Source of the DNA: Planktothrix serta PCC 8927
GTDB lineage: Bacteria > Cyanobacteriota > Cyanobacteriia > Cyanobacteriales > Microcoleaceae
Assembly: GCF_900010725.2 (NCBI RefSeq)
Contig: NZ_LR734871.1
Location: 56,168 to 120,167 of the forward strand
Direction of reading: 5' to 3'
DNA length: 64,000 nt
Under the pieces are notes generated by a model. That model saw only the letters and a list, made by a program, of their open reading frames with translations. It did no database searches and was not told the origin of the DNA. Positions 1,214 to 4,839 of this stretch are shown one piece after another (the first letter of the stretch is position 1; each line of letters begins with the position of its first letter). Both the position numbers and the translations under genes were made by a program.

Positions 1214-2932
1214 TTAAAACAAGAAATAACGCTGCGCCATCGGTAAAACCTCCGCAGGTTCACAGGTTAATAATTGCCCATCGGCTTTGACTTGATAGGT
1301 TTCAGGATCAACATCAATTTTCGGTAAAGCATGATTTAATTTCATATCGGCTTTACTAATATTTCGAGTTCCTGAAACTGCGACACATTGTTTTTTTAAC
1401 CCTAATTGTTCAGGAATTTTTGCTTCTAAAGCTGCTTGAGAAACAAATGTTAAAGACGTAGATGAAATTGCTTTTCCAAAACTCCCAAACATCGGACGAC
1501 CATAGACAGGTTGAGGGGTCGGAATACTCGCATTTGCATCCCCCATTTGCGCCCAAGCAATTAACCCGCCTTTAATGACTAATTCCGGTTTAACTCCAAA
1601 AAAAGCGGGTTTCCATAAACATAAATCCGCTAATTTTCCTTCAGAAATTGACCCCACATAATTAGCAATTCCATGAGTAATAGCCGGATTAATAGTATAT
1701 TTAGCAATATAGCGTTTTACCCGAAAATTATCATGGGTTGCTTGAGTGTTTTCAGGGTCAGTTAATATCCCCCGTTGCACTTTCATTTTATGGGCGGTTT
1801 GCCACGTTCTAATAATCGTTTCTCCCACCCGTCCCATCGCTTGAGAATCAGAAGCAATCATACTAAATGCCCCTAAATCATGCAAAATATCTTCGGCGGC
1901 AATGGTTTCTCGACGAATTCGAGATTCAGCAAAAGCAACATCCTCTGGAATATTGCGATCTAAATGATGGCAAACCATCAACATATCCAGATGTTCTTCT
2001 AAGGTATTCATCGTATAGGGACGAGTGGGATTTGTAGAAGAAGGTAAGACATTTTTCTGACCACAAACCTTAATAATATCGGGTGCATGACCGCCTCCAG
2101 CCCCTTCGGTATGATAGGTATGAATTACCCGATTTTTAAACGCTTCAATGGTCGTTTCTACAAATCCAGCTTCGTTTAAAGTATCCGTATGAATGGCAAC
2201 TTGAATATCATATTCATCGGCAACTTTTAAACAAGTATCAATTGCTGCTGGCGTAGTTCCCCAATCTTCATGTAGTTTTAAACCCATCGCCCCCGCCACA
2301 ATTTGTTCCACTAAACCTTGGGGTTGACTACTATTTCCTTTGCCTAAAAATCCTAAATTCATCGGAAAAGCTTCCGCCGCTTCTAACATCCGATAAATAT
2401 TCCACGCCCCCGGAGTACAAGTGGTGGCATTTGTTCCCGTGGCGGGGCCAGTTCCACCCCCGATCATTGTCGTAATTCCTGATGCAATGGCAGTCTCTAT
2501 TTGTTGAGGACAAATAAAGTGAATATGGCTATCAATTCCCCCGGCGGTGAGGATCATTCCTTCCCCTGCGATCGCTTCTGTGGCAGGGCCGATAATAATA
2601 TCAATATGATCTTGAATATAGGGATTTCCTGCTTTGCCAATCTTATAAATTTTTCCATCTTTTATCCCCACATCTGCTTTAACTATCCCCCACCAATCTA
2701 TAATTAAAGCATTCGTAATCACTAAATCAACAGCCCCATCCTCACGAGAAATCGGAGACTGTCCCATCCCATCCCGAATCACTTTTCCGCCCCCAAATTT
2801 TACCTCATCCCCATAGGTTGTATAGTCCCTTTCCACTTCAATAATTAATTCCGTATCCGCTAACCGAATGCGATCGCCCACCGTCGGCCCAAAGGTTTCT
2901 GCATACGCTTGTCGATCCATTTTATAACTCAT
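1214..2932 (-). CDS. ureC: Urease subunit alpha (catalytic)
   Basis: Catalytic subunit of the nickel urease, which hydrolyses urea to ammonia and carbamate in the cytoplasm. At 572 aa it has the normal family length. All active-site residues are visible: H136 and H138 (DSHIHF), the carbamylated lysine K219 (GLKLHEDWG), H248, H274, the flap Cys-His at 321-322 (MVCHHLD) and D362 ([12 protein letters not shown]). The start codon overlaps the stop of the upstream DUF4276 gene in an ATGA arrangement. ureB lies upstream but is separated from ureC by two unrelated genes, and neither ureA nor accessory genes are nearby, so the urease operon is split. ureC may depend on translational coupling to the inserted gene. 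Confidence 0.98.
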
Positions 2933-3615
2933 AAGTCTTCCTGGGGTAATGATAAGTTTTCTAGGAATTCAACGAAGGGTTTAAAGCATTGAGGACATCT
3001 TTCAGCAATATCCTGATAATTAGCTTGTCCTAAAATCAACGCTGAATCAACTGTTTTTTGATAGGTTTTATTATACGCTTTAAATAATCTTTCAACAATT
3101 CTACTCGGTGGCTGATCATGATTTTGCTCTTCTACGGGAATTGTCCAAGAAATCAAGAAGTTCTGCTCCTTTTTCAAGCCTAGACGGTTTCTGAGTTGAT
3201 TTTCCGAGGCTAACACTAAGGCTTCTAGGTCATGTTTGTAGCAAAAGACTTTAAACCTTTGTTTTAATCGATGATCTTCTATTGCTTTTTTTGTTAATTC
3301 CTGTTCAAATTGATTAATAATTCCTTCCTTAAGTTCATCATAAGTTGTATGGGGAAACCCTATATTTTTAGGATATAAATCGGGAATAACAACAACAATT
3401 GCTTGGCAATCATTCTGTAAGATAGAAATCGCTTTTTTAGGAATCACTTCTAAAAGTTCTTTTTTAGCATTTCCACCTCTTTGATTATCACTACCTTTGG
3501 CTGCAAAGAATTCAATTTTAATTCCTTGGATTTCCTGATTGTCAATTAAATCTTTTAACAGGGATTCCATTGCTAATTTATCTGACTTTCCTTCTACATA
3601 AACAATCACCTTCAT
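2929..3615 (-). CDS. DUF4276 family protein (TOPRIM-like), partner of upstream ATPase
   Basis: This 228-aa protein starts with a beta strand and the motif VYVEGKSD (E8, D12), typical of DUF4276 and of TOPRIM-type nucleases or ligand-binding domains. A second acidic site sits in VVVIPDLYP (D79), where a full TOPRIM would show DxD, so catalytic competence is uncertain. [10 protein letters not shown] is a later family-like motif. The gene is coupled at both ends by ATGA overlaps: its ATG overlaps the ATPase stop and its stop overlaps the ureC start. DUF4276 genes commonly sit beside an AAA ATPase, and related ATPase-TOPRIM pairs (OLD, PARIS AriA/AriB) act in phage defence. The defence role here is inferred from that analogy. 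Confidence 0.75.
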
Positions 3616-4790
3616 ATCAGTTGCTCCAATTCATCAGAACGATGTAATTTTTCAATTTCATCGGTTCCAAAATCTTCTAAAATATCGGTTAATACCTTAA
3701 AATTACTAGGCTTTATAAATTTTGCTTCTCCCTGTTCTTTACGCATCACGGCAATTTTAGATAAATCAAACTGACTTAGGAAATAGGAAGAATGGGTTGC
3801 TAACAAAATTTGAGTCCGTTCTGATGCTTTCTCAAACAGTCCTGCTAAAATAGATAATGTCCGGGGATGTACTCCTTGATCCGGTTCATCAATACAGATT
3901 AAACTGGGAGGATTAGGATGTAAACAAAGGCAAACCCAGCAAATCAAACGTAAAATTCCATCGGATAAATCCGCTAAACTAATAGTTTCATCAACTCCCT
4001 TTTCTTGCCAAAATGCAATAACCTCGCCAGGGCCACCTCGCGCTTTTACCATTAAATTTTTAAACCCTGGAATCATTAATCTTAAAAACAACTGCAATTC
4101 ATTAAAAATTTCTTGATGTTCTGTTTGTAAATAAAATAAAACAGAACTTAAATTTCCTGCATCTTCATGAAGAATCGGTTCCTGCTCAATTAACACTGAT
4201 TTACGGATTTTTTGATTAGCAATATTAAAAGAGCTATAAAATCTCCAATTCTGAATATATTCTCTCAAATCGAATAATAATTCTAAACGTGGATTAGTGA
4301 TTGTACTTAAAGCTAGTTGATTGCGTTTAGATTGAATATCCTGCTCAATTATTGTGTTTTCAAACCTCCCCGTATCTGGATTTTGAACTTGTCCTTGATT
4401 CCCTTGAATATCCATGAAAATATAAGGGTTTTTATATTGATCGCTATAGGGTTTAGAGGAAACAACTTTTTCATAGGTAATTTGTGTTTTCCCCACAGGG
4501 CCCATTAGTTCACCTTGATAGAGCATAGAAACAGGTCTATTGATATCAATTTCTAAGTTCCATGTAAACTTTTCTGGCCCGGTCAGATGAAAAATTTGTT
4601 GACCGATTGATCCCTCTATAATTTCAGTGGGTATCTCTCGATACATACCATCTCGGAGAAATTTCAAAAATTCAAACAAACTGGATTTTCCAGCCCCATT
4701 AGCACCTACAATCACTTCCAAAGATTGAAAGTTAGCTTGAAAATCTTTAAAAGGACGATACCCTTTAATGTTAATCGATAATAATCTCAT
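3612..4790 (-). CDS. AAA_21/ABC-type ATPase of a two-gene ATPase-DUF4276 module
   Basis: A soluble ATPase of about 392 aa in the SMC/RecF/OLD-like group. It has a Walker A motif GANGAGKSS at 29-37 after an N-terminal FxxF-type strand, a signature-like LSDGILRL, a Walker B LICIDEPDQGVHP and a switch histidine in LLATHS. A TTG start at 4811 is possible, but the ATG at 4790 has an AGGA site at proper distance and gives the usual MRLLSINIKGYRPF beginning, so I prefer it. The gene follows ureB by 49 bp and overlaps the DUF4276 gene in an ATGA. Such ATPases typically sense or load on nucleic acid and control an effector, here the DUF4276 protein. The function is inferred. Confidence 0.8.
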   Translation of the reverse strand: MRLLSINIKGYRPFKDFQANFQSLEVIVGANGAGKSSLFEFLKFLRDGMYREIPTEIIEGSIGQQIFHLTGPEKFTWNLEIDINRPVSMLYQGELMGPVGKTQITYEKVVSSKPYSDQYKNPYIFMDIQGNQGQVQNPDTGRFENTIIEQDIQSKRNQLALSTITNPRLELLFDLREYIQNWRFYSSFNIANQKIRKSVLIEQEPILHEDAGNLSSVLFYLQTEHQEIFNELQLFLRLMIPGFKNLMVKARGGPGEVIAFWQEKGVDETISLADLSDGILRLICWVCLCLHPNPPSLICIDEPDQGVHPRTLSILAGLFEKASERTQILLATHSSYFLSQFDLSKIAVMRKEQGEAKFIKPSNFKVLTDILEDFGTDEIEKLHRSDELEQLI

Positions 4791-4839
4791 AATCAAGATT
4801 TCCTGAGACAATCAATCATACAACTTTCACTCATCTATT

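Follow-up and report, generated by a model that had tools for sequence, protein, structure and literature searches.

A two-gene module encoding an ABC-type ATPase and a DUF4276 protein lies inside the urease operon of Planktothrix serta PCC 8927, within the window, the 64,000-nucleotide stretch of DNA that was analysed. The best reading of it is a mobile, conditionally costly ATPase–TOPRIM immune module landing in urease genes. We take the pair to be a conflict module of the HEC-01 kind, most likely directed against phages, with a probability of about 0.6. The module has relatives among anti-phage systems, both established and candidate ones; it is younger than the urease genes flanking it and appears to have been swapped between species. 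The more unusual facts are its exclusive urease address, the interspecies exchange and the other cargo found at the same junction.

Gene anatomy and predicted folds

The window carries ureB, the ATPase gene, the DUF4276 gene and ureC in this order on one strand, with ATGA overlaps at both the ATPase–DUF4276 and the DUF4276–ureC joints (Table 1), just as the first-pass annotation had described. The ATPase boundary given there, 4811, corresponds to an upstream TTG, and the ATG at 4790 is the likelier start, being the start point in most homologues. In comparison with module-free genomes, homology ends in the ureB tail and restarts exactly at the ureC ATG. A Shine–Dalgarno-like AGGA of ureC sits within the DUF4276 gene of the window, so translation of ureC is probably coupled to DUF4276 in Planktothrix. 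The module would be co-transcribed with the urease operon. In the empty ureB–ureC spacers of other Planktothrix genomes (G001–G008; L089–L092, L141–L146), the ureC ribosome site is preceded by a conserved hairpin (AAAGCCC...GGGCTT), which module carriers lack.

Table 1. Genes and overlaps of the urease locus in the window
Feature	Position	Strand	Basis
ureB, urease beta subunit, 126 aa	4840..5220	(-)	ORF; tblastn against other ureB
ABC-type ATPase, 392 aa, ATG start 4790	3612..4790	(-)	AAA_21; PADLOC HEC-01A top match
DUF4276 protein, 228 aa, predicted TOPRIM fold	2929..3615	(-)	PF14103; PADLOC HEC-01B top match
ureC, urease alpha, catalytic, 572 aa	1214..2932	(-)	ORF
ATGA overlap, ATPase stop / DUF4276 start	3612..3615	(-)	
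ATGA overlap, DUF4276 stop / ureC start	2929..2932	(-)	

All the ABC motifs previously claimed for the ATPase were found, namely Walker A (GANGAGKSS), signature (LSDG), Walker B (CIDEPDQG) and the switch His (in ATHSS), and they are nearly invariant across 27 relatives. Pfam AAA_21 matched the protein above its curated cut-off (1.1e-30), and a structure search showed that its model resembles PtuA (Septu, retrons) and the heads of SMC and Rad50. The pair is retained in many cyanobacteria and the ATPase dN/dS of the cyanobacterial copies is 0.12–0.33, indicating that the pair is real and selected.

The partner protein matched Pfam DUF4276 (PF14103) at 1.6e-19 over positions 1–192 of 192, with 71.4 bits against a gathering cut-off of 30.2. 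Its AlphaFold model, for which the input was a 38-row alignment, reached a pLDDT of 91.4, and all five PDB matches returned by Foldseek at E < 0.001 were C-terminal TOPRIM nuclease domains of the OLD family (1e-4 to 5e-4), GajA ranking lower. The TOPRIM-like VEGKSD start noticed in the first pass is accompanied by a predicted TOPRIM fold. The TM-scores to the OLD domains are modest (0.40–0.52), which backs the fold class and not the function. Residues E8, G9, S11, D12, D79, E131 and E162 are invariant in 38 relatives, and the TOPRIM EGxxD motif is present as an invariant VEGxSD; the second motif, PDLYP, offers D-L-Y with one Asp only of the D-x-D, so catalysis is not assured. DUF4276 is a probable TOPRIM nuclease. 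The same genome has five more DUF4276 matches elsewhere, four of them above the Pfam cut-off, and four of these five loci have a distant ATPase neighbour that is 24–29% identical to that of the window.

Distribution and the urease junctions

The four-gene order is not universal in cyanobacteria. The module is present in three of ten Planktothrix genomes, in 10 of 62 genomes of the family, always at ureB–ureC (in G010 this junction is split across two contigs), and a close ATPase (E < 1e-60) was found in 28 of 391 genomes of the order, with one module each. All 28 copies lie in a urease cluster, at either ureB–ureC or ureA–ureB, which replaces the earlier picture of a one-off stealth insertion with a recurrent urease-linked lineage. 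Planktothrix, Microcoleus, Tychonema and their kin have the order ureB–ATPase–DUF4276–ureC, and Nostocaceae and kin have ureD–ureA–ATPase–DUF4276–ureB–ureC; in the Hormoscilla type (four loci), ureC follows about 1–1.5 kb downstream. When 386 genomes were drawn from across the phylum, the copies listed were all ones already known from the order.

The premise that ureB and ureC normally adjoin held in the seven module-free members of the genus, where they are 80–95 bases apart, and failed in the family at large, where the two genes are often separated by other cargo. Cyanobacterial ure genes are often scattered, and in Nostoc PCC 7120 a gene of unknown kind separates ureDAB from ureC (PMC6737895), so interruption of the operon is tolerated. 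We surveyed the 46 of 62 family genomes in which ureB and ureC are readable on one contig, counting the ureB–ureC junction alone: 17 junctions are empty (<100 bases), 9 hold the pair, 18 hold 0.7–3.7 kb of other sequence and 2 hold ureG-D-E-F. The cargo-bearing junctions thus number 27 of 46 (ATPase–DUF4276 pair, GT61, NucS-like, Coq4-like), and the gap hosts non-defence cargo too. Eleven of the 18 other-cargo junctions were read, giving seven GT61 glycosyltransferases, three NucS-like genes and one Coq4-like gene, while the remaining seven were matched by size alone. The spread of the module between species inside this operon suggests that junctions within core operons can act as exchange sites for accessory genes.

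The individual insertions are varied. The GT61 gene (about 385 aa) occurs at ureB–ureC in many Microcoleus-type genomes (L093, L095, L096 with two copies, L098, L099, L101, L106), and in one genome (G042) an ATPase/DUF4276 relic adjoins two GT61 genes. The NucS-like, PDDEXK-type gene (about 336 aa; L094, L102, L105) overlaps ureC by ATGA in L094. A Coq4-like gene lies at ureB–ureC in L100 and also in Nostoc S13 (L054:4644-5301), there alongside an ATPase–DUF4276 pair at ureA–ureB. Between ureD and ureA, Tychonema carries a nucleotidyltransferase and HepT-like pair, a probable toxin–antitoxin (L039:5367-6015), and in Dolichospermum LEGE 00240 an opposite-strand gene for an 897-aa protein with pentapeptide repeats and a periplasmic-binding domain parts ureB from ureC (L053:9050-11740).

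Outside the cyanobacteria, relatives were found in Acidobacteria, Poribacteria, Nitrospinota, Chloroflexota, KSB1 and others, with ATPases mostly 52–68% and DUF4276 proteins 41–52% identical. None of these 21 has urease nearby, and most adjoin housekeeping genes, not defence islands, as read by eye. Links to phage defence, which the first-pass annotation had proposed, do appear among them: a KSB1 pair (ATPase 68%, DUF4276 50% identical) sits inside BREX, between PglX and AbiEi/PglZ, and another adjoins AbiEi–AbiEii. Searching phage and plasmid records and viral contigs with the DUF4276 protein yielded no relative, and a viral structure library gave no match below 0.001. In the ATPase tree, the 26 cyanobacterial sequences form one clade against the 21 others (95/98). 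Such a clade, with 28 of 28 close ATPases of the order on the urease strand at two junctions, would also be expected if the pair regulated or protected urease expression or sensed nitrogen state. We regard such an accessory role as improbable, since most urease-bearing relatives do without the module, the 21 outside relatives have no urease nearby, the module is younger than the adjoining genes and unrelated cargo occupies the same junction.

Exchange and decay of the module

Synonymous divergence (dS, by Nei–Gojobori) was lower for the ATPase than for ureC in 12 of 12 species pairs, which are partly non-independent. Between the window and genome G006 it was 0.12 for the ATPase versus 0.36 for ureB and 0.40 for ureC, and between Tychonema and Microcoleus LEGE 07076 it was 0.07 for the ATPase and 0.08 for DUF4276 versus 0.68 and 0.49 for ureB and ureC. 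In Microcoleus pairs, nucleotide identity steps from about 90% to 97–100% near the left border of the module and drops back in ureC. The ATPase gene tree rejected two ureC clades (AU p 0.012 and 0.038); the two trees agree at family level, and a single clade per operon position gave AU p of 0.28 and 0.44. Taken together, family-level agreement, dS, identity steps and within-family conflicts point to long residence in the urease operon with exchange within families. Simple vertical inheritance is ruled out by the dS values and the within-family tree conflicts, and the presence in only three of ten genus members, the broken DUF4276 genes and the hypervariable DUF4276 core likewise speak for a more complex history. 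No transposase or integrase was seen at the module borders, which speaks against a transposon origin. In Microcoleus-type copies the interval from ureB to the ATPase gene contains a short inverted-repeat element, AGGACTTACGC...GCGTAAGTCCT (L039:6720-6830; same place in L043, L047 and L049); it is imperfect in L049 and absent from the window.

Exchange may reach within the module. Over its first two thirds, DUF4276 shares 65–80% nucleotide identity in Planktothrix, Nostoc and Aphanizomenon–Cuspidothrix pairs, versus mostly 90–99% for the ATPase and about 91–97% for the end of DUF4276, a pattern that fits swapping of the TOPRIM core between alleles.

The two genes also differ in decay. Six genomes keep an open ATPase frame next to a DUF4276 gene that has been deleted, fused or broken, as expected for a costly effector, and the opposite case, a shortened ATPase start with intact DUF4276, was found in one; both genes are broken in another, and in two a short DUF4276 relic alone remains before ureB. 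The six-to-one ratio is suggestive of effector-first decay. Among the rearranged copies, an in-frame deletion joins the ATPase to the last 53 DUF4276 codons (441 aa; L031:1510-2835), and another arrangement (L015:400-2030, also L068) consists of a truncated DUF4276, a ureC start fragment and about 1 kb of remnants followed by a full ureC, and carries a NucS-like tail.

PARIS is both a defence and an addiction system, and the two readings overlap here as well. In a toxin–antitoxin-like addiction module, the ATPase would restrain a DUF4276 toxin, loss would be costly, coupling would hold ureC hostage and an anti-phage role would be unneeded. The ATGA coupling to ureC, the loss of the effector ahead of the ATPase, the persistence as a single copy and the horizontal exchange all agree with this. 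However, loss is evidently tolerated, given the losses that retain the ATPase and the clean absence from seven of ten genus members, and the close relative embedded in BREX favours defence, so we consider pure addiction unlikely. Less probable still is a housekeeping repair role for the pair in DNA maintenance, of the RecF/Rad50/OLD kind: the ATPase fold is near SMC and Rad50 and the gene is under strong purifying selection, but very patchy occurrence, decay and a fast-changing effector core are not what a repair gene would be expected to show.

Proposed function and comparison with known systems

By analogy with ATPase–TOPRIM pairs, the ABC-type ATPase would act as sensor and as restraint of DUF4276, a division of roles that effector-first decay and the variable effector core fit. 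Triggering of the ATPase, presumably by a phage, would release the TOPRIM effector to cut nucleic acid, and cutting would keep the infected cell, or the invader, from growing. The module of filamentous cyanobacteria resides in urease operons only and would be transcribed with them; it appears to pass horizontally from one species to another, probably by recombination in which the conserved ure genes act as homology arms. Points for defence are the HEC-01 matches, the TOPRIM fold, the BREX and AbiE neighbours, patchiness, dS and effector decay, and points against are the housekeeping neighbours, the absence of copies from the phage and plasmid records searched, the D-L-Y motif and the constant urease address, a location atypical for a defence system. 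On balance, the defence reading is plausible and better supported than it was in the first-pass annotation. A more elaborate version, in which urease expression or nitrogen state sets the trigger, timing or restraint of the cyanobacterial pair, so that the operon gates immunity while the nuclease core is swapped between alleles and the ATPase sweeps between species, strikes us as rather doubtful.

Searches for defence genes usually turn to defence islands, prophages and integration hotspots by tRNA genes. The module spreads between species yet keeps its urease operon address, and since it is found there only and appears to be swapped between species, this operon seems to be where a probable immune system is parked. 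A probable immune pair that is confined, in one bacterial order, to a housekeeping operon would be missed by island-based searches. The natural allele series of whole module, ATPase only, relic and empty site suits testing which gene is the effector.

The first-pass likening to ATPase–TOPRIM pairs is borne out by the predicted TOPRIM fold, the PtuA/Rad50/SMC-type ATPase and the HEC-01 matches of both genes, and the module differs from each established system. Among NCBIfam profiles the ATPase scores best against MAD3 (3.9e-28), and DUF4276 weakly matches mad4, but the scores are far below the curated cut-offs (98.8 bits versus 420 for MAD3, 13 versus 160 for MAD4) and no further MADS genes adjoin, which rules out membership in a multi-gene MADS locus; a MADS literature search returned nothing useful. 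Like OLD and Gabija GajA, which supply TOPRIM folds among the PDB matches, the pair combines an ATPase with a TOPRIM domain, but here these are two unfused ORFs overlapping by 4 bases, with ure genes and no GajB (UvrD) helicase as neighbours, and membership in either family is ruled out. PARIS (AriA–AriB) likewise has an ABC-type ATPase (AriA profile 1e-30) and a separate TOPRIM partner, and a similar sensor–effector logic is likely; the partner here is DUF4276, not DUF4435, and without a DUF4435 or AriB match the pair is not PARIS.

The closest counterpart is HEC-01, assigned from the best PADLOC matches by E-value of the two adjacent genes, HEC-01A for the ATPase (8.2e-60) and HEC-01B for DUF4276 (2.6e-16). 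HEC stands for Hma-embedded candidate (PMC10855318); PMC12988326 credits the HEC candidates to work that Payne and colleagues posted as a preprint in 2024, and names HEC-06 among those with antiviral activity. Literature searches returned no paper describing HEC-01 or its testing under that name, and none on DUF4276 in full text. HEC-01 and the window pair share the arrangement of two tandem genes, an ATPase and a DUF4276-like partner, and differ in their surroundings, the HEC-01 group having been found embedded in the Hma locus and the window pair lying between ureB and ureC in a urease operon.
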